From contig QCLK01000002.1 of assembly GCA_003214615.1 (NCBI GenBank), forward strand, positions 124,001 to 188,000: 64,000 nucleotides of DNA, read 5' to 3'. Shown here piece by piece: positions 1,369 through 43,570 of this stretch; position 1 is the stretch's first letter, and each line of letters opens with the position of its first letter. A program made the translations under genes and the position numbers. The notes under the pieces were generated by a model, which made no database searches, was not told the DNA's origin, and saw only the letters and a program-made list of their open reading frames with translations. Source of the stretch: Pelagibacteraceae bacterium AG-414-E02 (GTDB lineage Bacteria > Pseudomonadota > Alphaproteobacteria > Pelagibacterales > Pelagibacteraceae).

Positions 1369-2667
1369 ATGAGCTTAAACAAATTTTACATTAAAAAAAA
1401 AGAAGGTATTAATTTTGCAAAAATTAGTGGAGATAATAACAGTATTCATATAGATGAGATTTATGGTTACAACTCGATCTATGGGGAAAATATCGCACAC
1501 GGAGTTCTTGTAATTTTAAAATTTCTAAAAAAAATAAAAATTAAAAAAAATTTTTCTTACATTAAAGTTTTTTTTAATGAAGGTGCAAAATATAATCATA
1601 AAATTTCTTTAAAAAAAATTAAAAAAGGTAAAAAAAAATTATCGTATGAATTGGTTCAATTAAATAATACAATTGTTAGAATTGAATTGGGTTTTTTTCC
1701 AAATGATTTTAAAATTAGAAACCTTGAAAAAATATCTTTAGAAAGAAAGTTTCATACACCGAACATAAAAAAAAAAAATTTTTTTTCAAACTATATTCCA
1801 TCTGAACTAAATATAGCTCTTTATAAACTGACAGAATATGTTGGGACTATTTTTCCAGGAGAAAATTCTTTGATATCTGAAATTAATATATCAAATTTAA
1901 ATTTTAATCTAAGTGACAAAGTTATAATAAATTCTGACTCTACTTTATTAAAAAAAGGATTTCCAATAATCGAAAATAGACTCAAATATAAAAATTATAA
2001 TATTCAATTTAGAACATATGTAAGACCTAAACTAAAAATAAAATTGCAAAAACCACCAAAAAAAATAATAAATGAAATAAATTCGATAAAGGAAAATGTA
2101 TTAATAATTGGCGCCAGTTCAGGCATTGGAAATGATTTATTAAAACTATTTCTTAATAATAAAAAAATTAAAATAATTGCAACATATTATAAAAATAAAA
2201 TTTTAATAAAAAATAAAAATTTAATTATAAAAAAACTAAATATCGAAAAAAGCGTTTCTTTAGTTTATAATATCATCAAGAGGTATAGTCCGATTATAAT
2301 TTATTATTTTGCAACACCGAAAATTTTGTTCAAATCAATTAAAGATAAAAATTTTATTAAATTATACAATAAATATTTTATAGATATTCCTATTAAACTT
2401 ATTAAGTTTTCCAACAATTACGAATGTAAATTCTTTTACCCCTCAACCACTTATAACAACTCATTGTCAGAATATTCTTTGATTAAATTAAAAGCAGAAA
2501 GAAAAATTAAAAAATTGAAAAATAATAAAGTAAGAATTAATATAGCTAAAATTCCAGGAATTAATACAAGACAAACCTTATCTATGATTAGCAAAAATTT
2601 ACCTAACTTTAGAGATTTGATCTTCCAAGATGGGGAAATTTTTAAAAAGATATTTTTTAAAAATTAG
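1369..2667 (+). CDS. MaoC-like dehydratase fused to a short-chain dehydrogenase
   Basis: A 432-residue, very lysine-rich two-domain protein. Residues about 10-50 hold the (R)-hydratase signature of MaoC-like hot-dog enzymes, with FAKISGDNNSIHIDE at 16-30 giving the expected Asp/His pair, then a helix beginning IAHG. Residues about 243-430 are a Rossmann short-chain dehydrogenase: GASSGIG at 248-254 is the dinucleotide loop and Y369-SLI-K373 is the catalytic YxxxK, preceded by PST at 358-360 for the Ser. Together these activities reduce a 3-keto group and dehydrate a 3-hydroxyacyl thioester. The next gene is convergent, 5 bases away. The nearby acyl carrier protein makes an ACP-bound acyl substrate plausible, but this is not shown. 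Confidence 0.7.
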   Translation: MSLNKFYIKKKEGINFAKISGDNNSIHIDEIYGYNSIYGENIAHGVLVILKFLKKIKIKKNFSYIKVFFNEGAKYNHKISLKKIKKGKKKLSYELVQLNNTIVRIELGFFPNDFKIRNLEKISLERKFHTPNIKKKNFFSNYIPSELNIALYKLTEYVGTIFPGENSLISEINISNLNFNLSDKVIINSDSTLLKKGFPIIENRLKYKNYNIQFRTYVRPKLKIKLQKPPKKIINEINSIKENVLIIGASSGIGNDLLKLFLNNKKIKIIATYYKNKILIKNKNLIIKKLNIEKSVSLVYNIIKRYSPIIIYYFATPKILFKSIKDKNFIKLYNKYFIDIPIKLIKFSNNYECKFFYPSTTYNNSLSEYSLIKLKAERKIKKLKNNKVRINIAKIPGINTRQTLSMISKNLPNFRDLIFQDGEIFKKIFFKN

Positions 2668-2672
2668 GACAA

Positions 2673-3770
2673 TCAAAGATTTATTGGGCCGTCTCCATCG
2701 CCGCGTGTAATGTGTTTATGACTTTTATCTTTTATTTTGTCGTTTAGAGATTTTGAGGAAGCAAAAATAAAATTTGATACACCTTTTAAGAAGACATTTT
2801 TTCTAAGAGCATTTTGCCAAAAAATATGTGATTGATTAGATACTATTAGGTTTGAACCTTTTTTTTCAAGAATTTCAGTAGTTTTGGCTATAATTTCACC
2901 TTCGTAATTTTTTAGAGATAAACAGTCAATTATTGAACCAAGCTGCATATTTCCAAACTGTTTATGATTATTTAGCTTTGTACATAAAGAAATTGACCAG
3001 CCAACAATTTGGTTTTTATAATAAAATTTAAGTTTAATAAAACGTTTTTCAGAATATAAAGCATTCAAATATTTAGAATTACGGACAGCTATAAAAGAAT
3101 TATGTTTTTTTGTTTTTTCCCAAACTTCATCAAAATTTTTGTCAACTATTTTTATCTCTTCATAATTTAGTTCATTTTTTTTTATTTGAAAATTGAAAAT
3201 GTAGTAAAAAAATGTGATTAATTTTATACACAACCAACCTAAGCCAGAAACTGTAAGAATATCAATAAAAATAGATCTTAATTTTGTGCTTCTAAAATAT
3301 TTAATATTTTTTAAAAAACTATAAGGATTGATAATTTTGAAAAAAAATGGAATCTTTTCAAGCTCCCATTTCATTCCTTTTAAAAGTTTTGGTAGTGGCT
3401 CAGAAAGTCCACCCATGCCTAAGCTAAACAAATCAGATTTTTTTTTATTGGCGTCATTTAATAATAATATTCCACAAATATTATATTTTTTATTGAAAAG
3501 GCCTGCGGTAACTGGATTGTAATAATAACCCAACTGAACTAAATCATCGTTAATTTTAAACCATTGATATTTTAAATTATATCCTGCTCTAATTGTATTA
3601 TTATTTTCGGTAAGTATAAATCTTCTTTCAAATATAAAATTATTTTCATTTGATAATTTTTTATCGTGTTGCGGCAGGTTAAAATTAAAACCATGACTCT
3701 TTAATTCATCATTAAAGTTTTCTATTAAATCCTTATCTTTAGGATCGTTTTCTCTTATTAAATATTGCAT
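2673..3770 (-). CDS. GNAT-fold acyltransferase of surface-glycan loci
   Basis: A 365-residue protein, last gene of a four-gene minus-strand operon (ACP, FkbH-like, deacetylase, this gene) and one base after the deacetylase stop. Overall plan resembles the two-lobed acyl-CoA N-acyltransferase proteins found in polysaccharide clusters: an N-terminal lobe with FERRFILTENNNTIRAGYNL, a hydrophobic middle (about residues 165-195, possibly membrane-associated) and a C-terminal GNAT-like lobe with the acceptor-side stretch YYKNQIVGWSISL. The last residues, HITRGDGDGPINL, share a T-x-GD pattern with the other GNAT protein near 43571. The deacetylase next door could create the free amine it acylates; the acyl donor could be CoA or the operon's ACP. 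Family assignment is from overall resemblance only. Confidence 0.55.
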   Translation of the reverse strand: MQYLIRENDPKDKDLIENFNDELKSHGFNFNLPQHDKKLSNENNFIFERRFILTENNNTIRAGYNLKYQWFKINDDLVQLGYYYNPVTAGLFNKKYNICGILLLNDANKKKSDLFSLGMGGLSEPLPKLLKGMKWELEKIPFFFKIINPYSFLKNIKYFRSTKLRSIFIDILTVSGLGWLCIKLITFFYYIFNFQIKKNELNYEEIKIVDKNFDEVWEKTKKHNSFIAVRNSKYLNALYSEKRFIKLKFYYKNQIVGWSISLCTKLNNHKQFGNMQLGSIIDCLSLKNYEGEIIAKTTEILEKKGSNLIVSNQSHIFWQNALRKNVFLKGVSNFIFASSKSLNDKIKDKSHKHITRGDGDGPINL

Positions 3771-3771
3771 T

Positions 3772-4704
3772 TTAAGTTGAACCCAAAATCAATTTATTAA
3801 AAAGCCACTTCCATTCAAGCGCTCTTCTTTGATCTGAATTTATTTCCGTATTTTTATTTTCTGTTTTCAAAAATTCTAACAATGTGGATACTGTAACAAA
3901 CCAACCATCTCTTTTGCTTAACTTGGTCATCTGTTCTTTAAATTTTTCCGATATTTTTCCATTTTCTGAAAACCCATCAGCAAAATGTGTATACATAATA
4001 CACGCTCCTCCTTCTTGTTCTAATCGATCCTGATTTTTGTCAGAGATACATTTGGTAAACGTATTAACATTATTTCCTTCCGAAGAAGCAAACCAATAGT
4101 TAACATAAGGTTTTGTAATATCCTTGTAGGGCATAAATGGACAATTTTTTAATGTATTAATATCAGAAAAAACAAAGTTTCTTACATATGATATATTTTC
4201 TTTACATAAATCGCCCCAAAAAAATTTTGAATTTTTGTCATGACCTAAATAATATTTATTTTTTCTAAAAAGAGTTAAAATATTATAAGCTAGTCGCCTC
4301 GATCCTGACAACCTATGTGAACCCCAATATATGTTTTCTTTATTTTGTGAATGATTTGCCATTACAATTGGAATTTTTCCAAAAGTTTTTTTAAATTTTT
4401 CTAAACCATCCTTAATAACCTCTCGCTCTGAACTATTGCAAGTTGTATTATGGTATCCTATTTCAAAACCCTTTTTTTTTATTTCTAATAACCAGTCAAT
4501 ATAAAGTTTATCATCACATGTAATACCTTCGGTACTATTTTGAGTATTACTTTTATTAATCCAAACAGATCTAGTTGTTTTATATCCAAGATTATCTAGG
4601 CAATCATAGATTAATTGGCTATCTTTTAAATTTGAACGATCTGTGTCATCAAATATTGTAAAAGCGAATTTTTTATTATTTGGCCAGACTATCTTACGAT
4701 ACAT
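3772..4704 (-). CDS. NodB-like polysaccharide deacetylase family protein
   Basis: A 310-residue protein that looks like a divergent carbohydrate esterase 4 (NodB homology) member. FTIFDDTDRS at residues 16-25 matches the first motif, where the two Asp act as base and metal ligand, and histidines at GYHNT (H85) and ANHSQ (H118) could supply the remaining metal ligands. No signal peptide is seen, so it would act in the cytoplasm on a nucleotide-sugar or lipid-linked precursor. Its start overlaps the end of the FkbH-like gene by 11 bases and it stops one base before the GNAT gene, indicating tight coupling. Removing an N-acetyl group would leave an amine for the GNAT protein; this link is inferred. 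Confidence 0.6.
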   Translation of the reverse strand: MYRKIVWPNNKKFAFTIFDDTDRSNLKDSQLIYDCLDNLGYKTTRSVWINKSNTQNSTEGITCDDKLYIDWLLEIKKKGFEIGYHNTTCNSSEREVIKDGLEKFKKTFGKIPIVMANHSQNKENIYWGSHRLSGSRRLAYNILTLFRKNKYYLGHDKNSKFFWGDLCKENISYVRNFVFSDINTLKNCPFMPYKDITKPYVNYWFASSEGNNVNTFTKCISDKNQDRLEQEGGACIMYTHFADGFSENGKISEKFKEQMTKLSKRDGWFVTVSTLLEFLKTENKNTEINSDQRRALEWKWLFNKLILGST

Positions 4705-6403
4705 TAGCTTTTTCCAACATTTTGGGTTTTGTAATTTTGATGTTAGGTATGTTAATTTTTTCCTTACTAGGTAAAAGTGTAAAAGAGTTTTTGTCTTTTT
4801 TTAAAATTTTTAATTTTTGTAAAAACTGATAACAAAGAGTATTTTTTTGCGTTTTTATATATGTACCATTTATTTTCTTAATATTATTTTTACGGCAAAA
4901 ATCTTTTAGAAATTGAATAATTGTTTCTTCTATAAACCTTCCTACCACGCGGCAACTCATAACAAAATCGACTAAGTAGGCATTTTTTTCTTTAACCGAA
5001 ATGCTTAATATACCAATTATACCATAATCGCCGAACTTATCTTTTGCTCTTACCGTCCATAAATAGTTTGTTTTTTTTTGTATCCATTTCTGGAATTCAT
5101 TTTCTGTCATTCTGCGCGTAGATAAATTCATTTGGTTGGTTTTATTTAATAACTGGAGCGCTCTTGGGGAATTTTTGTTATTTATATTTTCAATTATTAT
5201 TTCCAAACCAAGAGTCTCAATCCATTTTGATAAAGATTTATTATTTTGTTTAAGTTTTTTTCTTTTAAATTCAGATTTGTATAAATCACCTCTTATTTTG
5301 TCTTCCTCAGTTACATGTACAAGATCAAAACATCTTAATTTTGACAGGAAGTTAGAATATTCAGTTGGATCTTTAGGTAAATCAGGCACATATACTTCAG
5401 GCAATATTTCTCTTACCCTTTCCCTTTCAAATGGACTGTCATCAAAAAATACAACCGATTGTAGTCCTAGATTTAATTCTTTAACCATCTCAGCAATATT
5501 TTTAGCTTTATCATCCCAATTAATTCTATGCGTTACAAAATCATCCATAGTTAAAACCATTTCAGGATGTTTGCTGAAGGCTTCGGTTGCGTTAGACTCT
5601 TCATTTTTACTTGCCACAGCCAAAAGTATTCCATGATTTTTTAAAGATTTAATTTTTGTTTGAAAATCATGGAACGCTTCACCTATATAATCATGACCGC
5701 CAATTCTTAATTTTTTCCATCCTACTTCACCCACTATTCCTCCCCAAACTGTATCATCTAAATCTAGAATTAATAATTTTTTTATAAATCCCAAGCTAGA
5801 CTTATAAAAGTTTAAAATATCTGAAATCGCTTCTTTAAAAAAATCATTTGAAAATGGACATTTCATTAAATACCAGAGTTTTGAATTGTAGGTATTTTTG
5901 ACGCCACAATTTGAAACCCATTTGTTTGTATTAAGTATATGTAAATTTTTTTCACTATTTAGTTCTTCAGATAAAATGTAATTAATGAAAGATAGGTTAT
6001 AATCGAGACCTCGACTTTTTGAATATCCCAGAGCAATATTGCTTTCGATAGGCTGTTTCAAAACCCAATTTGGAATCAGAACAAAATCGCTATTTTTTTT
6101 AATTGATTTCAAATAAGAGCAAAAAGAAACAACCTGTTCTTTCAAAATATCAGGATTGATTTTTTTGTTGTAAATTAGTTTTTTAAATTCAGGAAATATA
6201 TCTTCTGGTGTCGTCCAGACCAAAGATATATTACTTTTCTTTTTCCATATTTTATCTTTAGGATTAGTTAGAACTTGGAATACTTGGTTATAATTAACCT
6301 CATTAATCTCGAAATCATAGCTTTTATTATTTTTTAACAAACTAACAAGATTAGAGTGATTAAAACTCGAAATAATATTTATTGATATTTTATTTTTTTT
6401 CAT
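4694..6403 (-). CDS. FkbH-like HAD-IIIC phosphatase/acyl-ACP loading enzyme with GNAT-like C-terminus
   Basis: A 569-residue protein with the layout of FkbH-type enzymes: an N-terminal SGNH-like region (about 1-205), a HAD-IIIC domain starting LLILDLDDTVWGG at 210-222, with the second motif at AVASKNEE and the acidic motif FFDDSPFERERV, and a C-terminal acetyltransferase-like domain containing FGDYGIIGILSI and MSCRVVGRFIEE. In characterised pathways FkbH-type proteins move a glyceryl group from 1,3-bisphosphoglycerate to an acyl carrier protein while removing phosphate. The preceding gene encodes just such a carrier and overlaps this gene by 14 bases. Relatives also occur in O-antigen and capsule loci. 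The acyl group used here is unknown. Confidence 0.85.
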   Translation of the reverse strand: MKKNKISINIISSFNHSNLVSLLKNNKSYDFEINEVNYNQVFQVLTNPKDKIWKKKSNISLVWTTPEDIFPEFKKLIYNKKINPDILKEQVVSFCSYLKSIKKNSDFVLIPNWVLKQPIESNIALGYSKSRGLDYNLSFINYILSEELNSEKNLHILNTNKWVSNCGVKNTYNSKLWYLMKCPFSNDFFKEAISDILNFYKSSLGFIKKLLILDLDDTVWGGIVGEVGWKKLRIGGHDYIGEAFHDFQTKIKSLKNHGILLAVASKNEESNATEAFSKHPEMVLTMDDFVTHRINWDDKAKNIAEMVKELNLGLQSVVFFDDSPFERERVREILPEVYVPDLPKDPTEYSNFLSKLRCFDLVHVTEEDKIRGDLYKSEFKRKKLKQNNKSLSKWIETLGLEIIIENINNKNSPRALQLLNKTNQMNLSTRRMTENEFQKWIQKKTNYLWTVRAKDKFGDYGIIGILSISVKEKNAYLVDFVMSCRVVGRFIEETIIQFLKDFCRKNNIKKINGTYIKTQKNTLCYQFLQKLKILKKDKNSFTLLPSKEKINIPNIKITKPKMLEKANVS

Positions 6404-6665
6404 TTTTCTTTCTAATTATAAAAGCTTCAAGCGACCCTATAGTTTTTAATTTACTTGCGTTTTGAAGAATTTCATCAAAAGTTAAAACTAAGTTGTTTTT
6501 TTCTTTTAAATTTTTTTCTAAATTTACAAATAAATTTACTATGTCAATAGACTCTAATTTTGATTTTTCGTCAATTAAGGGTGTAGAATTTTTTATCACA
6601 AGTTTCTTATCTTTTGTTAAAACCTCATTTAACTGTTCAATTGATTTTTTAATTACATCTTGCAT
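6390..6665 (-). CDS. Acyl carrier protein-like protein
   Basis: A 91-residue acidic/helical protein, first gene of the minus-strand operon. KLESIDIVNLFVNLEKNL at residues 36-53 has the four-helix ACP layout, with S39 at the position that carries 4'-phosphopantetheine; the usual preceding Asp is Glu here (ESI instead of DSL). It closely resembles the second carrier protein at 43305-43568 around the same motif, so the two are probably paralogues. Its overlap with the FkbH-like gene indicates they work as a pair, the ACP holding the acyl group loaded by that enzyme. Neither is likely to be the housekeeping fatty-acid ACP, whose fab neighbours are absent. Confidence 0.75.
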   Translation of the reverse strand: MQDVIKKSIEQLNEVLTKDKKLVIKNSTPLIDEKSKLESIDIVNLFVNLEKNLKEKNNLVLTFDEILQNASKLKTIGSLEAFIIRKKNEKK

Positions 6666-6860: not shown

Positions 6861-7739
6861 ATGAGCAACATATTCGCAATGGTTACGTTAAAAAGCTCAA
6901 ATTTTTATACAGGCTATGCTCTAAAATCATTTTTTAACAACACTGAGATTGATCATAAAGATGAATTTTTATTAATTGATAATGATGGATGTACAACTGA
7001 CAAATTTTCTACTTTCAAAAAAATCAAAATAATCAAAAATAAACATCCTTTAAATTTTGCTGAGAATGTTAACCAAATTATTGATATTGCTTTAGAAGCT
7101 AAGAAAGATCTTATTTTTTTAACCAATGATCTTATTTTTACAAAAAATTGGGTAAAACCACTTTTATTAAATTCAACCACAATTTCCATACCTTCAAATA
7201 ATCAAATTTTTCAATATCACTCGGATTGTGGAAATTTAAAATTAAAAATTACAATGAATTTTGATGATTTCAATGAAAATTATAATCTATTAGATGATAT
7301 AGCAACAAAACATAAAAAAAAATTTAAATCACATCAAAAATTTCAAACATTACTAATGCCTTTTTCTTGTTTTAAAATACCTTACAAAATTTTATGTGAA
7401 GTAGGTCATTTAGATACTTCCTACGGCAATGGAGGCGGTGAAGATGTAGATTACAGAATTAGATGTGCCATTAAAGGACATGATGTAAATTTTTTGATTG
7501 ATTCATATTTGCTCCATTTTCATGGAAAATCAACTTGGGAAATTGAGACCAAAGATCAAACCGAAGAAAGAAATAAAAAATATATTAAAGTTTTTTCAGA
7601 AAAGTGGGGTAGTGATATGACTCAAATTTTTATATTAAGAAGAGATTTTTTTAACATTTTAGAAAAAAAAGGAATTAAAAATTTATTTAATGAAGGAAAA
7701 TTTGGCGATTTGATAAGGAAAATGTTACAGAAAAGTTAA
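6861..7739 (+). CDS. GT2-like (GT-A fold) glycosyltransferase
   Basis: A 292-residue protein. It begins with a beta strand and nucleotide-binding turn (IFAMVTLKSSNF), has a hydrophobic strand followed by LIFLTNDLIF at 84-93 where the metal/UDP-sugar acidic motif of GT-A enzymes sits, and carries GGGEDVDYRIRC at 191-202, the ED catalytic-base motif of family 2 glycosyltransferases, followed by the HFHGKST histidines at 219-225. Length and motif order fit rhamnosyl- or other O-antigen-type transferases. It starts 28 bases after a tRNA without an obvious own promoter, so it may be read through from that transcript, and it is convergent with the next gene 3 bases away. Substrate unknown. Confidence 0.75.
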   Translation: MSNIFAMVTLKSSNFYTGYALKSFFNNTEIDHKDEFLLIDNDGCTTDKFSTFKKIKIIKNKHPLNFAENVNQIIDIALEAKKDLIFLTNDLIFTKNWVKPLLLNSTTISIPSNNQIFQYHSDCGNLKLKITMNFDDFNENYNLLDDIATKHKKKFKSHQKFQTLLMPFSCFKIPYKILCEVGHLDTSYGNGGGEDVDYRIRCAIKGHDVNFLIDSYLLHFHGKSTWEIETKDQTEERNKKYIKVFSEKWGSDMTQIFILRRDFFNILEKKGIKNLFNEGKFGDLIRKMLQKS

Positions 7740-7742
7740 AAA

Positions 7743-8726
7743 TTATTTTACAATTTTTCTTGCCTGATTTAGAAAATTTTTCCACTCAATAGATCGTACA
7801 TCCCAAGAATAGTACATATTAATTACATCACTTTGTATTCTAAGTTTTTTTTGATTTTCGTCTGACCAAAAATTTTTAATGCGGTTACCAAGAGCAATGC
7901 TGTATCTTTTTTCTAAGTCATCTAAATTTTCACTAAAACCTACAAGAGTTCCAAAGGGGGCACAGGTTTCAAATAAAGCTCCCATGTTTGTTGCAACAAC
8001 CTCGCAACCAGCTGCCATTGACTCGATCGCAGCAATGCAACTTGTTTCTGGCCAAATACTCGGGTAGGCAAAAATATGCATTTTTTTTAAGAGCTCGATA
8101 ATTTTATCGTTATTTACAAAACCAAAATAATTAACATTTTTTGTATTTTTACATTCATCAAAAATGCTTTCATATTTTTTTCCTAAAATATCGTCAAATT
8201 TTTTCCCATATATTTTTGTTGATGTACAAATATTTAACTCTACATTTTCTAGATTTAATTTCTTAAATACTTTTAGGATATGTACCAACCCTCTCCAAGG
8301 AGTGGTGTGATAAATTAGATTTATTTTGTCAGTCGGCTTTTTTTGAAAATCTATTTTCTCAATAGCATTTTTAATTACTATAGATTTGCTTCCTGGTATC
8401 TTATACTGATAAACAAATTTTTCAAAATTCCAATTCGAATTAAAAACAATAAAATCAAGTTTTTCAACAAAATCTTTAGACCCTAAATTTTGAGCTTCTT
8501 TTTGGTTTACAAAATGATGCATCCACAAAACATTAATTTTGTCTTTTTCTATAAGATCATAACTTGCATTGTTAAGGATTAAATTAATGTCTTTAAAATT
8601 TTCATCTGGTAAATATTTTAATAGAAGTCTAAATTGATTTTCGCTACCGCCAAATGATTCTTTAAATGAAACCGCTCTTGTCTCGTCATCACTGGCTTTT
8701 TTTAAAATTCTAGATTTTTCGTCCAC
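7743..8726 (-). CDS. GT4-like (GT-B fold) glycosyltransferase
   Basis: A 327-residue protein. An N-terminal domain opens with the donor-side loop FGGSENQ at 25-31, typical of family 4 glycosyltransferases. The C-terminal domain has PSIWPETSCIAAIESMAAG at 222-240, with the two Glu at E227 and E235 in the EX7E arrangement used by retaining GT4 enzymes, then CEVVATNMGALFE. No signal peptide. It follows mlaC by 17 bases on the same strand, so it may be expressed from the mlaA-mlaC promoter, an unusual placement suggesting that the accessory island has grown into the end of a conserved operon. Donor and acceptor cannot be told from sequence. Confidence 0.8.
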   Translation of the reverse strand: MDEKSRILKKASDDETRAVSFKESFGGSENQFRLLLKYLPDENFKDINLILNNASYDLIEKDKINVLWMHHFVNQKEAQNLGSKDFVEKLDFIVFNSNWNFEKFVYQYKIPGSKSIVIKNAIEKIDFQKKPTDKINLIYHTTPWRGLVHILKVFKKLNLENVELNICTSTKIYGKKFDDILGKKYESIFDECKNTKNVNYFGFVNNDKIIELLKKMHIFAYPSIWPETSCIAAIESMAAGCEVVATNMGALFETCAPFGTLVGFSENLDDLEKRYSIALGNRIKNFWSDENQKKLRIQSDVINMYYSWDVRSIEWKNFLNQARKIVK

Positions 8727-11747: not shown

Positions 11748-12150
11748 CTTTAGATCTTATTTAGCAAGTATGGGTTATAACGGGGTAATTTGCTATCCTT
11801 CATTCAACAATCCTTCGATCGAAGGATGTTCGCAAAACAGAATAGAAAAATTATCAGATTCAATTGATTCACTAAACCCATTTGAAGAAAAAAGAGATGT
11901 TTTTGCAACTTCTGTCTTAGCAGAAAGTGTCAACCTTCAGTTTGATGGTGAAGGAAGGATATCTCTCCCAACTAAACTGTTAAGTCACGCAAAAATTAAA
12001 CAATCTATGCTTTTCGTTGGCCAAGGAAAAACTTTCCAAATTTGGGAGCCAAAGCTTTTCGAAAAATTCAAATTACAAGCTAGAAAAAAAGCTAATTTGA
12101 ATAGGGCAAGTTTAAAATGGGAAACACAATTTAAAAAGGAGGTTAAATGA
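11686..12150 (+). CDS. mraZ: Transcriptional regulator MraZ
   Basis: A 154-residue protein with two SpoVT/AbrB-like halves: LDKKMRVSVPASFRS at about 10-24 and FDGEGRISLPTKLL at about 84-98, the duplicated DxxGR(V/I)(S)(L/V)P signature of MraZ. The family forms ring-shaped oligomers that bind TGGGN repeats and repress the division and cell-wall cluster, and such repeats are present at 11579-11603. The N-terminus MFLSTYENKLD matches the usual MraZ beginning, which supports the ATG at 11686, although its own ribosome site is poor and a leader frame overlaps it. The stop overlaps the ftsZ ATG by four bases. Confidence 0.92.
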   Translation: MFLSTYENKLDKKMRVSVPASFRSYLASMGYNGVICYPSFNNPSIEGCSQNRIEKLSDSIDSLNPFEEKRDVFATSVLAESVNLQFDGEGRISLPTKLLSHAKIKQSMLFVGQGKTFQIWEPKLFEKFKLQARKKANLNRASLKWETQFKKEVK

Positions 12151-13643
12151 CAATTAATGTAAATGTAGCAGAATTAAGAGAATTAAAACCACGAATTTTA
12201 GTACTTGGTATTGGCGGGGCTGGCGGAAATGCAATAAATGGAATGATTGATGCTGGATTACAAGGCGTAGAATTTGTTGCGGTGAATACAGATGCCCAAG
12301 ATTTAAAAAATAATAAAGCGCATGCAAAAATTCAATTAGGTTCAAGTTTAACAAAAGGTTTAGGAGCGGGTGCTAAAACTGACATAGGACAAGCTTCTGC
12401 TGATGAGTCTTTAAATGAGATAATTAATTTTATACAAGGTAGCAACATGGTTTTCATAACTGCTGGAATGGGTGGCGGAACTGGAACTGGAGCATCACAT
12501 GTTATTGCAAGAGCTGCTAAAGAACTTAATATACTCACAGTAGGAGTGGTGACACTACCTTTCTTGTATGAGGGTCCAAGTCGAATGAGAAGAGCTTTGC
12601 ATGGATTAGAAGAATTAAAAAAACATGTTGATACAAATATAGTTATTCCAAACCAAAATTTATTTAAGGTGGCAAGTGAAAAAACTACCTTCGAAGAATC
12701 TTTTGAACTTTCTAATAGAGTTTTAAAACACGGAGTTCAAAGTATTACTGACTTAATGGTAAGACCTGGATTAATTAATTTAGATTTTGCTGATGTCGAG
12801 ACAGTAATGAGCGGAATGGGTAAGGCCATGATGGGAACTGGTGAAGCAGAAGGTGAAAAAAGAGCTCTGGATGCAGCTGAAGCAGCCTTAAAAAATCCTT
12901 TAATAGATGAATATTCTTTAAAGGGAGCAAGAGGACTTTTAATAAATATTACTGGAGGAAAGGATCTAACACTTTTTGAAGTAGATGAAGCGGTAAATAA
13001 AGTTAGAGCAGAGGTAGATCCCGAAGCAGAATTAATTATTGGCGCAATAACAGATACGGATATGCAAGGCAAGATGAGAGTATCTATAGTTGCCACAGCC
13101 CTAGATAATCAAGGTCCACAAGTAAAACCTATTGTCAGTATGGTTCATAGAATTCAAAACAGAAATACAGGTTACAAAGAAAATGTAATGAAAACTTTAG
13201 AAACTAATCAATCTGTTTTAAATGCAACTGAAGGAGCTACTGCTTTGGACATGAATGCAGCTATAGAACAGACAAAAGTTGTAGAAAATCAGAATCAAAA
13301 CAATGATTTACCTATTGAAAATATTTCTATGGAAAATGCTAATTATCTTCAAAATATGGAAGAAAACGCCAATAATTTCAACGATGAATCTATTAATCAA
13401 GAAAGTAAAGAACCAACTTTTGAAGTAGATAGTATTGAATTGGTAACTCCAGAACTATTTTCTCAAGATGAAGAAAACAGATCAATAGAAAATGAAAATA
13501 ATGAAATGAAAATGTTTGATGAATCAACTTCGAGCGAAGATTCTAAATCAATTGAAAATGAAAAAGCTCAAGAAATGTTTAGTGAAACAGACTTAGACGA
13601 AGATTTTGAAATACCAGCTTTTTTACGAAAACAAAAAAACTAA
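12147..13643 (+). CDS. ftsZ: Cell division protein FtsZ
   Basis: A 498-residue tubulin-like GTPase that polymerises at midcell to form the division ring. Visible hallmarks are GIGGAGGNAINGM at 21-33, the tubulin signature GGGTGTG at 109-115, and the synergy loop near DFADVETVMSGMGKAMMG. After the globular domain (ending near 320) comes an Asn/Glu/Ser-rich flexible linker of about 160 residues, then the conserved tail IPAFLRKQ at 489-496 that binds FtsA and partners. AAGGAGG at 12136-12142 gives a strong ribosome site, and the ATG overlaps the mraZ stop. In most Proteobacteria ftsZ follows ftsA; here it sits between mraZ and rsmH, 15 kb away. Confidence 0.98.
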   Translation: MTINVNVAELRELKPRILVLGIGGAGGNAINGMIDAGLQGVEFVAVNTDAQDLKNNKAHAKIQLGSSLTKGLGAGAKTDIGQASADESLNEIINFIQGSNMVFITAGMGGGTGTGASHVIARAAKELNILTVGVVTLPFLYEGPSRMRRALHGLEELKKHVDTNIVIPNQNLFKVASEKTTFEESFELSNRVLKHGVQSITDLMVRPGLINLDFADVETVMSGMGKAMMGTGEAEGEKRALDAAEAALKNPLIDEYSLKGARGLLINITGGKDLTLFEVDEAVNKVRAEVDPEAELIIGAITDTDMQGKMRVSIVATALDNQGPQVKPIVSMVHRIQNRNTGYKENVMKTLETNQSVLNATEGATALDMNAAIEQTKVVENQNQNNDLPIENISMENANYLQNMEENANNFNDESINQESKEPTFEVDSIELVTPELFSQDEENRSIENENNEMKMFDESTSSEDSKSIENEKAQEMFSETDLDEDFEIPAFLRKQKN

Positions 13644-27817: not shown

Positions 27818-28497
27818 TAAATATTTATAGAATAATTTTATTACTTATTACTTTCATTTTATTATCAACATATAACCCTAGTGATATTAATTTATCGCAT
27901 AATAAAAAAAAAGTTTTTTTCAAAATAAATGATATTGAAATAACAAATACTAGAATAATCAAAGAAAGTGAAATTTTTGAAAAACTTAATTATTTATATA
28001 ACAAAAATATTTTTACCATTAACAAACAGGATATAGAAAACCCTATTTCAGAATTAGACTTTTTAGAAAGAATTGAAGTAAAGAAAAAATATCCAAACAA
28101 AATAATTATAAAAATTTATGAGACAGAACCTGTTGCAATTTTAATTAAAAATGAAAATAAATACTATTTAGATAGTTCAGCAAATTTAATTATTTTTAAA
28201 GAAAATTTAGGTTTTAGCGATTTACCGAATATTTTTGGAGATGGAGGAGAAAATCATTTTATAAATTTTTTGACACAATTAAAAAATAACAATTTTCCAA
28301 ACCAAAAAATTAAAAGCTACTATTATTACAAAATAGGAAGATGGGATTTGCAACTTTTAAATGATAAAGTTATAAAATTTCCTGACAGTAAAATTGTTGA
28401 AGCTATCCAAAAGTCTGTTGAATTGTTAAATCGTGAAGATTTTAAAAACTATAATATAATTGATTTACGGATCCATGATAAGATAATAGTAGAGTAA
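27814..28497 (+). CDS. ftsQ: Cell division protein FtsQ
   Basis: A 227-residue bitopic membrane protein. One N-terminal membrane segment (about 4-20) is followed by a POTRA-like region (FFKINDIEITNTRIIKESEI, then LDFLERIEVKKKYPNKIIIK and IYETEPVAILIKN) and a beta domain containing YLDSSANLI and LPNIFGD. These are the recognisable FtsQ/DivIB blocks. FtsQ holds FtsL and FtsB at the septum. It is in canonical order ddl-ftsQ-ftsA, overlapping ddl by 4 bases and ftsA by one. Sequence is divergent, so order contributes strongly. Confidence 0.9.
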   Translation: MINIYRIILLLITFILLSTYNPSDINLSHNKKKVFFKINDIEITNTRIIKESEIFEKLNYLYNKNIFTINKQDIENPISELDFLERIEVKKKYPNKIIIKIYETEPVAILIKNENKYYLDSSANLIIFKENLGFSDLPNIFGDGGENHFINFLTQLKNNNFPNQKIKSYYYYKIGRWDLQLLNDKVIKFPDSKIVEAIQKSVELLNREDFKNYNIIDLRIHDKIIVE

Positions 28498-29732
28498 TGG
28501 ATTCCAACAATTCAATAGGAATAATCGAACTAGGTAATATCAACATAAAATGTCTTATTTTTAGAATCAATAACGATGATACTTCAGAAATTTTATCATC
28601 ATCATTAGTTAAATCTGAAGGCATCCATAATAGTAAAATAGTTAACCCTGTAAAAGCTGCTAATGCAGTTAGATCTTGCATAAGCATTGCAGAAAAAAAA
28701 GCTAAGGTTTTTTTGAAAAAAATAAATGTGGTTATAGAACAACCAGAATTTTTATGCACTAAATTTTCTAAACATAAAAAAATTGATGGATCAAAAATAC
28801 AAAAAGAAGATATTGAATTTCTCTTAAAGGAAGCAAAAAAACAGGTAACACTTAATGATAGAACTCAAAAAATAATTCATATTTTTAATCACAACTATAT
28901 CGTAGATAACAAAACATTTATTGAAGAGCCAATAAATGTTTATGCAGATTCTTTAAGACATGAGATGACTTTTATTACTATGCCAAAAGATAACTTAAAA
29001 AATATTAATCAAGTGTTTATTGACTGTGATATTGAAGTAGAAAGGTTAATCTCATGCATATTTTCTCTTGGTGTAGAATTATTAAATTATAAACAACTTC
29101 AAAAAGGTTCAATTTTAATAGATTTGGGATTTGAAAAAACAAGTTTAGGAATATTTAAAGATTTAGCATTGATACACATTCTTACCTTACCTATTGGGGT
29201 GAACCATATTGTAAAAGATATTTCAAAAGTCTGTTCTTTAAATTTAGATGAATCTGAAATTATTAAAAATAATATTGATTTTTCTTTTATTGATAATGCA
29301 AAAGTATTTGATGACAGTGATTATTTAAAAAAAGATTTTTTTAATACTTCACATTTTAGAAAAATAAAGAAAAGTTTAATAGCAAATGTTTTAAAAGCTA
29401 GATTAAACGAGATTTTGGAGATTGTAAAAAAACAAATAATTGTAACTGGATTAAACACAAACTCAGAAACTAACATTTTTATTACTGGAGGAGGTTCTAA
29501 TATTTTAAACCTAGAAAAATATTTTTCTAATTTTTTTGATTTAAATGTCAAAAAAATAGGGGTGAAAAGCAATGAAGGAAAAAATGAAAAAAATTCTTAT
29601 GCCAATTTTTCTTCATGTTTAGGAGCTTTTAAAATAATCAAAGATGGTTGGGAAACTGAAGCTATTCCTGAAAGTGTTAATAAAAATGAGGGTAAATTAG
29701 GATTTTTTGCAGGAATTTTTAAAGGACGATGA
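28497..29732 (+). CDS. ftsA: Cell division protein FtsA
   Basis: A 411-residue actin-like ATPase that tethers FtsZ filaments to the membrane. It starts with the phosphate-1 strand IGIIELGNINIKCLIF; later blocks include GSILIDLGFEKTSLGIFKDL (phosphate 2) and NIFITGGGSNILNLEKYF (adenosine motif). The last residues, LGFFAGIFKGR, form a short amphipathic helix of the kind that anchors FtsA to the membrane. The usual downstream partner ftsZ is absent here; instead there are 73 non-coding bases and then lpxC. Confidence 0.93.
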   Translation: MDSNNSIGIIELGNINIKCLIFRINNDDTSEILSSSLVKSEGIHNSKIVNPVKAANAVRSCISIAEKKAKVFLKKINVVIEQPEFLCTKFSKHKKIDGSKIQKEDIEFLLKEAKKQVTLNDRTQKIIHIFNHNYIVDNKTFIEEPINVYADSLRHEMTFITMPKDNLKNINQVFIDCDIEVERLISCIFSLGVELLNYKQLQKGSILIDLGFEKTSLGIFKDLALIHILTLPIGVNHIVKDISKVCSLNLDESEIIKNNIDFSFIDNAKVFDDSDYLKKDFFNTSHFRKIKKSLIANVLKARLNEILEIVKKQIIVTGLNTNSETNIFITGGGSNILNLEKYFSNFFDLNVKKIGVKSNEGKNEKNSYANFSSCLGAFKIIKDGWETEAIPESVNKNEGKLGFFAGIFKGR

Positions 29733-37461: not shown

Positions 37462-39099
37462 ATGAAATACATCAATTTTAAAAGATATTATTTTTCCACA
37501 GTAGCAAAAAGCCTTAATACATTAAGATATAATTTTATAAAAATTTTTAAATTTGTAAATTTTAGCGGATACAATCTTAAAACAATTTACAAGTATCTAG
37601 ATGTTAGAAGATATAACTTTACAAAAATTCTTAAATACTTTAATCCAAAAACATACAGTATTAATCGTTTCAAGAAAATCAATTTTATAGGAAATAAATT
37701 TTTAAAAATACACCTTCCTGCTTCAATTATTTTTTTTGGTTTTCTTTACTTAGTTATACCAACTTTTTATAATTACGATAAATCTGATATAGAAAAACTT
37801 ATATGCAAAAAACAAAATATTGAATGTATAATACAAGGTAAAGTAAATTATCGTTTTTATCCAACTCCAAGAATCCTAATAAAAGATTTAATAGTAAATG
37901 ATTTTTTTAAAAAAAAAAGAACTCTAATTACAGCTGAAAACACTGCAGTAAAACTTTCTATTAAAAATTTATTGGCTAAAGAAAAACAAAAATTTAAAAA
38001 AATAGAGTTAAATAATTTTGAAATTAATTTAAATTTGGAGAATTGGAAAAAGTATAAAAGTATTTTTAGCAAGAAAACCAATCTAATTCCTGTAACTTTC
38101 GTTAAAGGAAAAGTTTTACTTTTTGATAAAAATGATTATGTAGCTACCATAAGTGATTCAAAAATAAATTTAAAATTTGTTCCGAACTCTATTAATTTTA
38201 AGTTGTGGGGCAAAATCTTAAATGATAAAATTCATATTAATTTAAATAGCGAAAGGATTGATAATTCTACTTTCTCAGAATTTTTATTAAAAATGTCCAA
38301 TTTAAACTTGCTTACAAAAGCTAGTTTTATTAATTCTGAAAAAGATAAAAATGTAGTAAGTGGTAATGTTTTAATAAAACAGGACAAGAATAAAATCACC
38401 GCAATTATAGACTATAAGGATAATAAAATAGTAATTAATAAATCTAATTTAAGAAACACTTTTATAGATGGAAAAATGGAAGGTATAATTACGATATTAC
38501 CCTATTTTAATTTCAATTTAGATGTAAATTTAAACAGTATAAATTTTACAAAATTGTATAGTTATTTTTTATCTCTAGATAATAATCAAAGAAAAGAAAT
38601 ATTTAAAATAAATAAAAAAATCAACGGAGAGTTAATCTTAGCTTCTGATAAAATATACTCTAGTTATAATTTAATAAAATCCTTTGAATCTAATTTAAAA
38701 TTTAATAATGGAAAAATTTCAATTAAACAATTTTTAATTAATTTAGGTAAATTAGGTGCGGCCGACATTTTAGGCACAATTAATGATGATAAAAAATTTA
38801 GTAATTTAAAATTCGAGAGCAATGTTTTTGTAGATAATCAAAAAAAGTTTTTGAGCAAATTTGGTATCTATAACAAAAAAAATATTTCATCTAACTTTTT
38901 TGTTTCAGGAAATTTTGATTTGGATAATTTAAGAATGAGTTTTTATGAAATATCTAATGATGAAAAACTTAGTAATGAAGATGTTAATTATGTAGAAAAA
39001 GAATTTAATGATTTAATGCTAGGCGAAGGTTATAAAAGCTTATTTTATTTTCCGACATTTAAGGAATTTATCCGATCAATATCAGATGAAACGAATTAA
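37462..39099 (+). CDS. AsmA-like inner-membrane protein with repeated N-terminal segment
   Basis: A 545-residue protein. One membrane segment at about 85-101 ([17 protein letters not shown]) leads into a beta-rich domain starting [20 protein letters not shown] and [20 protein letters not shown], the pattern of the AsmA N-terminal (YhdP/TamB-like) region; AsmA-like proteins are thought to bridge lipids between the two membranes. Before the membrane segment lie about 80 residues that repeat a short aromatic/basic unit (for instance [41 protein letters not shown]). The end overlaps the convergent fumC by 4 bases. Assignment to AsmA is by topology and the post-membrane motif. Confidence 0.6.
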
Positions 39100-40484
39100 C
39101 TTGGCTTAATCATTTTTTTGGGATTTACAATTTTATTGTATTCTTTTTCTGTTATTAACCCTGATTTTATAGACTCTTCCTTCAAAGTAGTTCCGTTTTT
39201 GTGAGCTTTTTTTGCTATTATAGCAGCATTATCGTAACCAACTTTTGGAGACAATGCAGTTACCAGCATTAAGGAATTGTCCAAAAATTTTTTTATTCTT
39301 TTTTTATCTGCTTTAAGATCTTTAATACAATAGTTTGCAAAACTTTTTGAAGCATCAGCCATTATGTGAATTGATTGCAATATATTATGTATGATTAGTG
39401 GTTTAAAAACATTTAACTCAAAGTGTCCATGAGATCCAGCCATAGTTATCCCATTATGATTTCCAATTACTTTTACACAAACCATAGTGACAGCTTCACA
39501 CTGTGTTGGATTTATTTTTCCTGGCATAATAGATGAGCCCGGCTCGTTTTCTGGTAAAATTAATTCACCATATCCAGCTCTTGGACCTGAGCCTAAGAAT
39601 CTAATATCGTTTGCTATTTTCATTAAACAAACAGCTGTTGTATTTAACGTCCCAGAAAAATTTACTATAGCATCATGTGCTGCTAGTGCTGCAAATTTGT
39701 TTGTAGCCGGTTTAAAAGGAAGTTTTGTAATTTTTTTAAGTTCAGAAACAATTTTTTTATCAAAACCTTTTTTTGTATTTAAACCTGTTCCAACAGCCGT
39801 TCCACCTTGAGCTAAAAAATATATTTCTTTAAGAGCTAATTCTATTCTTTTAATACATTTACTTAATTGTGAGTGATATCCCGAAAATTCTTGTCCTAAG
39901 GTAATAGGAGTAGCATCTTGAAGATGTGTTCTCCCAACCTTTATAATTTTTTTAAATTCTTTAGTTTTTTTTCCCAATTCTGAATTAAGCAATTTTAGAA
40001 AAGGTAATAATTTCCCCTTTGTTCTAATTGCTATAGCCATATGCATTGCAGTTGGAAAAACATCATTTGTAGATTGAGATTTATTAACATGATCATTTGG
40101 GTGAACAGGTTTCTTGCTGCCCAATTTTCCACCAAGAATTTCAATCGCTCTATTTGCGATTACTTCATTAACATTCATATTTGTTTGTGTGCCTGAACCA
40201 GTTTGCCAAACTTTAAGGGGAAAATGATCGTTGAGCTTTCCAGTAATTACTTCATCAGCTGCTTTAATAATCGATTTACTTATTTTTTTATCTAAGTTTC
40301 CATTTCTAGTATTTACTATCGCAGCAGCCTTTTTTATCATAGCAATAGATTTGATTACTATTGGTCTAACCAAGAAATCTCCAATATCAAAATGTTTATT
40401 GGATCTTTGAGTAGAAGCTCCCCAGTATTTACTGTTAGGAACTTTAACAACTCCTAGGCTATCGTGTTCTTTTCTAAATTTCAT
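39096..40484 (-). CDS. fumC: Class II fumarate hydratase
   Basis: A 462-residue iron-independent fumarase converting fumarate to L-malate in the TCA cycle. It has the early [15 protein letters not shown], the substrate loops [20 protein letters not shown] and [40 protein letters not shown] with the catalytic His, and the fumarase/aspartase signature [11 protein letters not shown], whose Ser is the catalytic acid. The first group could suggest aspartase, but HPNDHVN and length fit fumarase C. Probably monocistronic. Confidence 0.96.
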
Positions 40485-40517
40485 ATGTTATAACGAATTT
40501 TAATATATTAATTTAAT

Positions 40518-40709
40518 TTACATAAAAAACCATAAAATTAGCGAAACTAAGGCAATGATGATAATTAGGATTCTGACACCAAATAAATATCTTGTAATCT
40601 CTGGAGTAGGTGAGGATTTATTTCCTATTCTCGCTCCTAGCCGAATAATTAAATAAAATGCCAAAAGAAGAGCAAAAATTACAATTAAAATTTCAATTTT
40701 TCCTAGCAC
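40518..40709 (-). CDS. Small membrane protein with two helices
   Basis: A 63-residue protein with two hydrophobic segments, at about 5-25 (ILIVIFALLLAFYLIIRLG) and 46-62 (RILIIIIALVSLILWF), joined by a short polar loop. No recognised domain. It lies 33 bases upstream of fumC's start on the same strand and could share a transcript with it. Its frame is clean and its composition fits an inner-membrane protein, but I cannot give a function. Confidence 0.5.
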   Translation of the reverse strand: MLGKIEILIVIFALLLAFYLIIRLGARIGNKSSPTPEITRYLFGVRILIIIIALVSLILWFFM

Positions 40710-40751
40710 TAGTGTAATTTAACATAATTAAACAAAAAAATACAAAATAAT

Positions 40752-41411
40752 ATGAATATAAAAAATTATAAAGTGAAAAAAATTTCATTAGTATTTTTGA
40801 TATTTTTTTTGTTTTCTGCAGCATGTTCAAATCCAATAGATCAAACAAAACAAAATGAACTTGTACAAAGTAATCAAATTAGAATTGGAATGGGTTGTCG
40901 AACTTTGACTGAAATGATCGGTGGCTATAGAGCTATAACGTATTTATATTTGGAAAAAAAGAACTTGCCTCAGAACTTGGCAAATAGTTATTTATTAATG
41001 TCTACTGCATCTAAAAGTGCTAATAAAAATTTTTTCTTATGTGAAAGAAAAAGGATTGATAATATTCGCATCAGACAAAGAATTAAAAAGCATATTTACG
41101 ACTATGACTTAATAAAAATATATAAGGACCCTAATGACATGATCAGATATGTATTAAGCGTATCTTCAGCGTATACTCGGATGCATATTTTATCGAGAGT
41201 AAATCTTATTGACTATAATTTAAGTCGTCCTGAAGTGAACGTGATTCTAGACGAAATTGTTGTAAAAGAAAGGAAGTTACTTGATGAGGAAGCTAAGAGG
41301 GCAGAAAAAATTTTAAAAGAAGAAATAAAAAAAGAAAAATTAAATGTGCCTGAGGATGAAGATCAAAAAATACTAAGGAAAAAAATATTAGAAGAAATAA
41401 ACAATCAATAA
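40752..41411 (+). CDS. Putative lipoprotein of unknown function
   Basis: A 219-residue protein with a lipoprotein signal peptide: basic MNIKNYKVKK, a hydrophobic core, and lipobox FSAAC with lipidated Cys at 25. The mature part is helical; residues 50-160 (GCRTLTEMIGGYRAITYLY, later YVLSVSSAYTRMHILSRV) are not recognised, and the end (about 165-219) is a charged Lys/Glu coiled coil. It is divergent from the small membrane protein gene and 19 bases upstream of the methyltransferase, so it may be co-transcribed with it. Function unknown. Confidence 0.55.
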   Translation: MNIKNYKVKKISLVFLIFFLFSAACSNPIDQTKQNELVQSNQIRIGMGCRTLTEMIGGYRAITYLYLEKKNLPQNLANSYLLMSTASKSANKNFFLCERKRIDNIRIRQRIKKHIYDYDLIKIYKDPNDMIRYVLSVSSAYTRMHILSRVNLIDYNLSRPEVNVILDEIVVKERKLLDEEAKRAEKILKEEIKKEKLNVPEDEDQKILRKKILEEINNQ

Positions 41412-41430
41412 GTAAGAAAAATAATTAAAT

Positions 41431-42537
41431 ATGGAGCTACAAGCCAAAAAAAAATCTTTATGGGGCACTTTTAAGAATGCCTATTTAAGGCAAAAGAATC
41501 TAAAAAAATTTTGGAATAAGCTAGATAAATCAAAATTGCCAAAAGATTTAATTGAGACATTCAATTTATATATAAACTCTCCCAGTTATAATTGGTCTTC
41601 AAAATTTTGGCGTCATGTAATGATGCTTCACTTAAATTTAATAGCAAGTGGAAAATATAAAAATTACGAAAACATAATGTCTAGACTTTATTTTACCTGG
41701 GTTGAAATGGAAGAAGATTTAATTAACAATTCTTGTAAGGAAATTCAAAATAATAAAATTGATCTAAAAGTGAATTTATTTAAAAAACAAGAAAATTTAA
41801 ATTGGACAGCTTCTATAAATCATAATTTAATTTTATTGCTTTTATATGAAAATATTAAATCAAAAAAAGTATTTAAATATTTAAATAAAATAAACAAAAA
41901 TAGCTCTATAGTTGAAAATTCTTTAAATATAAATGACTTAGAAATTACTCAAGATAATCTAAATTCATTAAGTGAATATGAAAAAATCGAAGATTTATTG
42001 GGCAACTTATCTTCAAGAAAAAAGAGATTTTTGGAGGTAGGAGCAGGTTCTGGTAGAACGGCTAAAGTTATATTGTCCATTAACGATGATGCGAAGTATG
42101 TTATTGCCGATTTGCCTCCAGCAATAGATGTTAGTTTTAAAAATATAAAAGCGAGTTTTCCAAATAAAAAAATAACAAAAGGTTTTAATCTTAATGAAAT
42201 GGATTTAAAAACAGCTTTCGAAAAAAATGATATTTTATTTATTTTTCCTCATCAAATTAAATTTTTTACAGAAAAAACATTTGATATATCTATTGCGATT
42301 GATTGCTTACATGAAATGGATAAAAAAATTGTTAAGGATTATATGTCCAGTTTTGAACAAGTATCCAAACTGTTATATTTTAAAGTTTGGGAATACGCGG
42401 GACTACCTTATTCCTTTTACCAACATTATTCAGTTCACAAAAAGGAAGATTATTTTATTAAAAATTCTTGGAAGGAGCATCTTAAAGAAAGATGCATTTA
42501 TCCTGCAAAATTCTTTCATCTTGGTTATGAATTTTGA
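41431..42537 (+). CDS. Putative sugar O-methyltransferase
   Basis: A 368-residue protein. The Rossmann SAM-binding motif is FLEVGAGSGRT at 200-210, followed by YVIADLPPAIDVSF, where the acidic residue ends the second strand, and AIDCLHEM in the third; the arrangement matches the putative sugar O-methyltransferase group found in polysaccharide loci. The N-terminal 190 residues are helical and carry WSSKFWRHVMMLH. Its neighbour downstream is another methyltransferase, supporting a role in capping or modifying a surface glycan. Target sugar and position are unknown. Confidence 0.7.
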   Translation: MELQAKKKSLWGTFKNAYLRQKNLKKFWNKLDKSKLPKDLIETFNLYINSPSYNWSSKFWRHVMMLHLNLIASGKYKNYENIMSRLYFTWVEMEEDLINNSCKEIQNNKIDLKVNLFKKQENLNWTASINHNLILLLLYENIKSKKVFKYLNKINKNSSIVENSLNINDLEITQDNLNSLSEYEKIEDLLGNLSSRKKRFLEVGAGSGRTAKVILSINDDAKYVIADLPPAIDVSFKNIKASFPNKKITKGFNLNEMDLKTAFEKNDILFIFPHQIKFFTEKTFDISIAIDCLHEMDKKIVKDYMSSFEQVSKLLYFKVWEYAGLPYSFYQHYSVHKKEDYFIKNSWKEHLKERCIYPAKFFHLGYEF

Positions 42538-42570
42538 ATAATTTATATTTAATGTTAGTTTAATTTTATC

Positions 42571-43296
42571 ATGTATTTAATTAAAACGTTTATAAAGTTT
42601 TTATCTTCTAAAATTTTAACTCTAAAGTTTTCAGAAAGACTTTCTCAAAATATAATTAGAAGAAATATTATCGCTCAGAAAAATCCTAAAATCGTTTCAA
42701 CTGCCGCTGGAAATCCAAAATCTTTTAAAATTAATTCTTGGAATGAAATATTAAGATATAAGGTTTGGAAAAAAATCCCCGAATATATTGATACTAGCAA
42801 AGATATTCTTTATTTAGAATTTGGTGTTTGGGAAGGGCATTCCATTAAATTCTTTGCAGAAAAATATAAAAGTAAAAATTCTGAGTTTTATGGTTTTGAT
42901 ACTTTTTATGGTTTTCCCGAAGATTGCCTAGATATGAAAAAAGGTCATTATTCTACTTCTGGAGATATACCTAAAACAAGCGACTCCAGAATTAAATTTA
43001 TTAAAGGACTTTTTCAGGAAACACTTACTGATTTTTTAGAAAAACTTGCAACAGAATCAAAAAAAAAAACAGTTCTGATTCATTTTGATGCACCTTTGCA
43101 CTCTGCTACTCTTTTTACTTTATTTAAATTAGATGAAAAATTTAAAAATTATTATTTTATTTTTGACCAATTTGGAACTGATGAATGCAGAGCTTTTAAT
43201 AGTTATAGTCAATCAACGATGAGAGAGTATGATTTATTTTTAGCAAGTATGTGGAATCGTGCCCCCGAAGTAGTTTTCGGCAAATTTAATAGTTAG
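42571..43296 (+). CDS. TylF/MycF-like class I methyltransferase
   Basis: A 241-residue protein. LYLEFGVWEGHS at 80-91 is the SAM loop of the TylF/MycF macrocin O-methyltransferase group, and FYGFDTFYGFPEDCLDM at 107-123 is its highly characteristic second block; later IHFDAPLHSAT provides the acidic metal site and QFGTDECRAF the third. Such enzymes methylate sugar hydroxyls in a metal-dependent way and are common in O-antigen and glycoconjugate clusters. It lies 33 bases after the other methyltransferase and converges on the ACP gene with 8 bases between them. Confidence 0.8.
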   Translation: MYLIKTFIKFLSSKILTLKFSERLSQNIIRRNIIAQKNPKIVSTAAGNPKSFKINSWNEILRYKVWKKIPEYIDTSKDILYLEFGVWEGHSIKFFAEKYKSKNSEFYGFDTFYGFPEDCLDMKKGHYSTSGDIPKTSDSRIKFIKGLFQETLTDFLEKLATESKKKTVLIHFDAPLHSATLFTLFKLDEKFKNYYFIFDQFGTDECRAFNSYSQSTMREYDLFLASMWNRAPEVVFGKFNS

Positions 43297-43304
43297 TTTT
43301 TAAT

Positions 43305-43568: not shown

Positions 43569-43570
43569 GT

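Follow-up and report, generated by a model that had tools for sequence, protein, structure and literature searches.

A candidate acyl carrier protein-based cassette for acyl decoration of surface amino sugars in a Pelagibacteraceae genome

A 64,000-nucleotide stretch of the genome of Pelagibacteraceae bacterium AG-414-E02 (contig QCLK01000002.1, positions 124,001 to 188,000 of the forward strand; hereafter, the window) carries four contiguous genes encoding an acyl carrier protein (ACP), an FkbH-type protein, a distant relative of CE4 deacetylases and a GNAT-like protein. We think it fairly likely that they constitute a cassette for ACP-based acyl decoration of an amino sugar belonging to a glycan or glycolipid of the surface. 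In such a scheme, glycolysis would supply a three-carbon acid that is probably loaded onto the carrier protein and attached to an amino sugar of the coat. The underlying logic of loader, ACP and acyltransferase is likely to be right, and the deacetylase step is plausible. We infer every chemical step, as well as the sugar, the linkage and the identity of the acyl group, from sequence. The four genes are as follows:

6390-6665, minus strand: P0001, acyl carrier protein (91 aa), with candidate phosphopantetheine Ser39 in KLESIDIVNLF
4694-6403, minus strand: P0002, FkbH-type HAD-IIIC protein (569 aa), a predicted ACP-loading glyceryltransferase/phosphatase
3772-4704, minus strand: P0003, divergent CE4/DUF2334-like protein (310 aa), a predicted cytosolic amide hydrolase (deacetylase) for an amino-sugar precursor
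2673-3770, minus strand: P0004, GNAT-like protein (365 aa) with two possible lobes, a predicted ACP-to-amine acyltransferase

A first-pass annotation of this DNA had proposed these four open reading frames as a single unit, and both their coordinates and their junctions (a 14-nt overlap of ACP and FkbH, an 11-nt overlap of FkbH and P0003, and a 1-nt gap between P0003 and P0004) were reproduced. That they form one unit is borne out by the overlaps and by a congener, G010, in which full-length orthologues of all four keep this gene order; the 14-nt overlap between ACP and FkbH is also found there, as it is in locus L013, from Pelagibacteraceae AH-287-E08. Because the G010 orthologues are 63-71% identical to those of the window at ratios of nonsynonymous to synonymous change (pN/pS) of 0.29-0.37, indicative of purifying selection, the four genes are real and maintained by selection, the ACP included (66% identity, pN/pS 0.29). 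Glycosyltransferases, recognized in a Pfam scan of the window proteins, flank the cassette on both sides (137-1015 and 6861-8726).

The identity of P0002 as an FkbH is certain on profile evidence: it matches TIGR01686 with 298.3 bits (E=6.2e-89) against a curated cut-off of 146.65, contains an FkbH_N domain (PF21211; 33.5 bits against a cut-off of 27, E=5e-8) and has a solved relative in 3slr (E=6e-52), confirming its earlier assignment as an FkbH-type HAD-IIIC loader. All of the HAD motifs (DxDxT, S, K and DD) are present together with one conserved cysteine, and the corresponding residues (D214, D216, T218, S265, K299, D321, D322 and C484) are identical in all eight FkbHs compared, C484 being the presumed acyl-carrying cysteine. 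FkbH enzymes take the phosphoglyceryl group of 1,3-bisphosphoglycerate, dephosphorylate it and load it onto an ACP (PMC7489565); OzmB is an FkbH-type example (cited in PMC5318452). By itself, P0001 yields no sensible match in Pfam or NCBIfam. However, Ser39 is the only invariant column in an alignment of 12 ACPs, such that its designation as an ACP, with Ser39 as the candidate pantetheine site, is well supported. A ten-row profile combining it with more canonical ACPs matches solved ACPs (E=3e-4 to 1e-3; the best named one at E=5e-4). In every locus for which the flank was covered, an ACP gene lies either directly beside FkbH or one gene away.

FkbH was detected in seven of the 147 genomes of the family (six of them over the cut-off) and the P0004 gene in just two, those of the host and G010, where the orthologue likewise lies in the FkbH cassette; these low frequencies denote an accessory cassette. 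The G010 cassette shares its rpoD side with the window and has a different opposite flank, and in G006 an ACP-FkbH pair instead adjoins pntB. In a tree whose members were selected by similarity to the window protein, the window FkbH and those of two congeners group with FkbHs of Flavobacteriales (98/98) and not with other SAR11 FkbHs, which fits horizontal transfer. An apparent in-frame fusion of GMP reductase to FkbH in G004 (L004, 817-1869) was rejected as a probable assembly chimera at a contig end.

If FkbH charges an ACP that an acyltransferase then empties, as the first-pass annotation had argued, N-acyltransferase genes should recur beside FkbH and ACP, and in most of the loci inspected they do: FkbH-ACP pairs near an N-acyltransferase occur in SAR11, Flavobacteriales and Nitrospirales. 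In addition to the GNAT-like genes of the window, G010 and L013, seven further loci show the association, with AAC(3)-type enzymes near FkbH/ACP in L024 and L042 and, a few genes away on the downstream side, in L007, L010 and L012 (those of L010 and L012 assigned by their close similarity, judged by eye, to that of L007, which was tested with profiles), and with GNATs in L043 (E=5e-12) and L015 (E=6e-9). This recurrence supports the general logic; deacetylase activity of P0003, the role of P0004 as a GNAT and the transfer of a plain glyceryl group are conjectural parts of the original argument. All four kinds of gene also occur together outside the window locus, both in G010 and, in an independent arrangement, in L013, where a GNAT-like gene, an ACP and an FkbH accompany a true polysaccharide deacetylase (Polysacc_deac_1, E=7e-14). 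Beside the L013 cassette is a sulfotransferase gene (PF00685, E=5e-16; 12412-13263, minus strand), which hints at a sulfated glycan in that organism.

P0003 matches no Pfam or NCBIfam family, and direct profile comparison detects no similarity to the L013 deacetylase. Two of its distant relatives match DUF2334 at E about 1e-3, under that family's cut-off, and a seven-row P0003 profile aligns with a DUF2334/deacetylase set over motifs 1 and 2 with an hhalign probability of 95.6% (unrelated controls, <1%). The protein keeps the motif-1 Asp pair, the first His of motif 2 and the C-terminal Thr-His, and D19, D20, H85, H118, R175 and H240 are conserved in all six rows that cover these positions. 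In the aligned sequences, however, the position of the second His of motif 2 (HxxxH) is occupied by C, Y, F or S, which, combined with the remote profile match, renders P0003 remotely CE4-like but deficient in one defining CE4 feature; H118 could substitute for the missing residue as a metal ligand. Of the earlier description of a NodB-like deacetylase without a signal peptide, the remote homology and the lack of a visible signal peptide thus stand, and the canonical metal motif does not. Relatives of P0003 sit in polysaccharide loci of Bacteroidota: one adjoins a DegT-like aminotransferase and a sugar-phosphate transferase (L033), another lies near a WecB-like gene (L034), and a third, on a Bacteroides plasmid, adjoins a GNAT gene (L026). 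This plasmid copy is the sole plasmid relative; there are no phage relatives, and scans of viral contigs recovered no relatives of either P0003 or P0004.

The assignment of P0004 as a GNAT-like protein is owed to its N-terminal pattern, MxYLIRExxxxDKDxI, judged by eye, and to the order of predicted strands and helices in its second half, which is GNAT-like in an AlphaFold2 model built without an alignment (pLDDT 37.5) and not reliable at that confidence; alignment-free predictions for P0003 and P0004 together range from pLDDT 32 to 38. P0004 produced no meaningful match in any profile library scanned, and profile comparison detected no similarity to the GNATs of L013 or L026. The former characterization of P0004 as a two-lobed GNAT therefore retains its pattern and predicted topology but finds no profile match behind it.

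Convergent with P0004 and five bases from it is a gene that the first-pass annotation had overlooked, as it had a second ACP/GNAT-like pair (43305-44650):

1369-2667, plus strand: P0005, MaoC-like dehydratase fused to an SDR reductase (432 aa), a probable acyl-tailoring enzyme

Its MaoC domain (PF01575) is recognized at E=1.5e-6, and D22/N24/H27 along with the Gly-rich motif, S359, Y369 and K373 are invariant in four sequences. In three other SAR11 genomes (G024, G193 and G067; loci L023, L042 and L043), its relatives adjoin FkbH/ACP or are located close by. Full-length MaoC-SDR fusions occur in five of the 147 genomes of the family, and FkbH is present in four of these five, compared with seven FkbH genomes overall. 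This association (hypergeometric P=9e-6) is biased, as some of the sequences behind the search profile were themselves neighbours of FkbH. In G010, a VOC gene is inserted between the third and fourth cassette genes, and its product matches methylmalonyl-CoA epimerase (TIGR03081) at E=4.6e-15 with 56 bits against a cut-off of 115, as expected of a relative rather than an equivalog of this enzyme. P0005 here and the epimerase-like VOC gene of G010 suggest that the acyl group may be processed before transfer. In L023 (4613-10650; G024), genes for a NodU-like carbamoyltransferase, an ACP, ketoacyl synthase III (KAS III), a MaoC-SDR fusion, a second ACP and FkbH stand in a row. This SAR11 genome thereby appears to have a small fatty-acid-like pathway for which FkbH provides the primer.

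On the most economical reading, which draws on what is known of OzmB and the FkbH family, C484 of P0002 would accept the 3-phosphoglyceryl group from 1,3-bisphosphoglycerate, the HAD site of the protein would remove the phosphate, and the glyceryl group would pass to the pantetheine of the ACP. The ACP-bound acyl group might then, optionally, be tailored, by MaoC-SDR here and by the epimerase-like VOC protein in G010; one possibility for MaoC-SDR is that it dehydrates the group to an enol/pyruvyl form, which it then reduces to lactyl. In what would be the weaker part of the scheme, the CE4/DUF2334-like protein, apparently cytosolic, may strip a sugar precursor of an N-acyl group and so free an amine, to which the GNAT-like protein, as the pairing of FkbH/ACP with N-acyltransferases suggests, would move the acyl group from the ACP. 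Glycosyltransferases of the same variable region could then use the product.

Several observations weigh against this reconstruction. P0004, queried whole and as separate halves with E values of up to 10 allowed, matches no GNAT profile, and P0003 lacks the canonical metal-binding His noted above. No amino-sugar synthesis gene adjoins the cassette. The phosphopantetheinyl transferase AcpS was not found in the host genome, whose assembly is 86.6% complete (it is present in 15 of 23 genomes of the genus). P0003 relatives occur without FkbH in G021 (L025) and L032-L034, in G021 as a lone gene in a glycan region near pntAB, so the deacetylase link is looser than that between FkbH and ACP. MaoC-SDR is absent from G010, and its relative in G156 lies in a housekeeping context; on these grounds we rejected it as an obligatory part of the cassette.

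These points bear on three other explanations. The lack of a profile match for P0004 and of the second motif-2 His in P0003 would be accounted for if only FkbH and ACP were active as proposed, with P0003 not a deacetylase (e.g., a catalytically altered CE4 fold) and P0004 not an acyltransferase. We regard this as somewhat unlikely, given that both proteins are under purifying selection, that the six residues conserved in all covering rows of P0003 look like an intact, rearranged active site, and that the L013 cassette pairs a canonical deacetylase with a GNAT-like gene. It is also possible, and in our estimation unlikely, that the same cassette places its acyl group in O-linkage or on a non-sugar amine (of a lipid, peptide or small metabolite), with the deacetylase-like protein acting in another step: no amino-sugar genes adjoin the cassette, P0003 occurs without FkbH, and the ACP-FkbH pairs of Flavobacteriales follow TonB-like and WG-repeat genes, near AAC(3) and FemAB, and not obvious glycan genes. 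The glycosyltransferases on either side of the window cassette, the polysaccharide loci in which P0003 relatives reside, and the sugar acceptor of the Campylobacter jejuni precedent (PMC3068675) all argue for a sugar instead.

Finally, FkbH and ACP could supply a small polyketide- or tetronate-like product, with the neighbouring genes being unrelated residents of a hypervariable region. Known FkbHs do serve methoxymalonyl-ACP and tetronate biosynthesis (PMC7489565), and the SAR11 relative G024 has KAS III, a NodU-like carbamoyltransferase and MaoC-SDR beside its FkbH. However, no gene for a ketoacyl synthase, polyketide synthase or nonribosomal peptide synthetase lies near the window cassette, and the cassette genes, which are contiguous or overlapping, stay together in G010, rendering this explanation very improbable. 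An acyl-decoration cassette for amino sugars remains the reading that we favour.

The second ACP/GNAT-like pair, which lies beside a second tRNA-Met gene, consists of:

43305-43568, minus strand: second ACP (87 aa), with TLDSMAIVNF, whose Ser aligns with Ser39 of P0001
43571-44650, minus strand: second GNAT-like protein (359 aa), whose gene immediately precedes that of the second ACP

No FkbH accompanies this ACP, and a single FkbH was found in the genome. The second GNAT-like protein, which has no profile match, is 30% identical over 335 aa to the GNAT-like protein of L013 (8482-9537), and this relationship to the L013 cassette raises the prospect that one FkbH might serve two carriers. In its fullest form, a decidedly speculative one that we consider quite unlikely, the single FkbH would charge both ACPs (6390-6665 and 43305-43568), each with its own GNAT-like partner, and the three-carbon unit would be remodelled on its carrier before transfer (by MaoC-SDR here, by the epimerase in G010) and put on de-acetylated amino sugars, generating swappable N-acyl decorations of the surface. 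The pair is located in a second variable stretch (37462-44650), in which it is preceded by two methyltransferase genes (41431-42537 and 42571-43296; TylF-type, E=8e-6). Elsewhere in the window, ftsZ (12147-13643; TIGR00065, E=3e-113) has moved from its usual place after ftsA and lies between mraZ and rsmH, and ftsA (28497-29732) is directly followed by lpxC.

Were the proposed function correct, a central glycolytic intermediate, 1,3-bisphosphoglycerate, would be used in decorating the cell surface of bacteria from one of the most abundant groups in the ocean, and the decoration would be encoded in a variable region of a type to which recognition by phages and grazers is attributed. It would also yield a testable rule, namely that FkbH and ACP beside a GNAT or AAC(3) denote an ACP-dependent N-acyltransferase and not a polyketide pathway.

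Two loci from different SAR11 lineages, L024 (16197-18500) and L042 (4591-5886), contain DUF4910/DUF2172/HTH_47 proteins near FkbH, ACP and AAC(3), the DUF4910-type domain of L024 being fused to an extra N-terminal region of about 340 aa. This arrangement, carried by SAR11 genomes G055 and G193, is reminiscent of the cj1295 locus of C. jejuni, in which we take cj1295 to be a DUF4910 protein and cj1299 to be an ACP.

The C. jejuni cj1295-cj1302 locus includes fkbH-domain, epimerase-annotated and N-acetyltransferase genes, and its product is an amino sugar decorated with glyceric acid (PMC3068675, PMC7099621). There, cj1295 is required for the dimethylglyceric acid on flagellar pseudaminic acid (PMC3068675), and two strains, 12664 (in which cj1302, the fkbH-domain gene, is a pseudogene) and 12661 (which has no cj1301, annotated as an epimerase), both lack pseudaminic acid bearing this group, a correlation drawn from two strains with no cj1302 knockout (PMC7099621). 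This precedent makes the chemistry proposed in the first-pass annotation plausible and not unprecedented. That annotation knew of no characterized pathway with exactly this gene set, and although C. jejuni furnishes a close chemical precedent (PMC3068675, PMC7099621), its gene set does differ. Of the features that would mark a system of the C. jejuni type (FkbH, ACP, an N-acyltransferase and an amino-sugar acceptor), the window has FkbH and ACP, with an acyltransferase identified by pattern only and no acceptor pathway adjoining the cassette. Compared by descriptions, it has no AAC(3), O-methyltransferase or DUF4910 gene beside its FkbH and instead has CE4/DUF2334-like, GNAT-like and MaoC-SDR proteins. 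Our literature search found no link of FkbH to O-antigen, lipopolysaccharide or SAR11, and found FkbH together with a glycan only in PMC7099621.

The FkbH systems for tetronates and methoxymalonyl-ACP (OzmB, Mad7/Mad8 and Mad14/Mad12) deliver to polyketide synthases by way of FabH-like proteins or dehydrogenases, whereas the window has no ketosynthase but does have acyltransferase-like and deacetylase-like genes. The nearest FkbH group outside the genus (98/98) belongs to Flavobacteriales loci of the form ACP-FkbH-VOC-(TylF-type methyltransferase)-AAC(3)-FemAB (L007, L010 and L012), whose VOC protein is homologous to that inserted in G010 (36%); unlike the window, these loci contain AAC(3) and FemAB in place of any P0003- or P0004-like gene, and they do not lie in an evident glycan locus. 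The full block in these genomes runs from WG-repeat and TonB-like genes through ACP, FkbH and VOC to a methyltransferase, an AAC(3)-like gene and FemAB. L013 resembles the window in its 14-nt ACP-FkbH overlap, in a polysaccharide deacetylase gene overlapping FkbH and in a divergently adjacent GNAT-like gene, but its FkbH is only 35-36% identical, its deacetylase is a canonical PF01522 member, and its GNAT-like protein resembles the second one of the window (43571-44650) and not P0004. A chemically similar decoration is already known from Campylobacter flagella; what would be new is its extension, in a SAR11-type bacterium, to a different set of enzymes.

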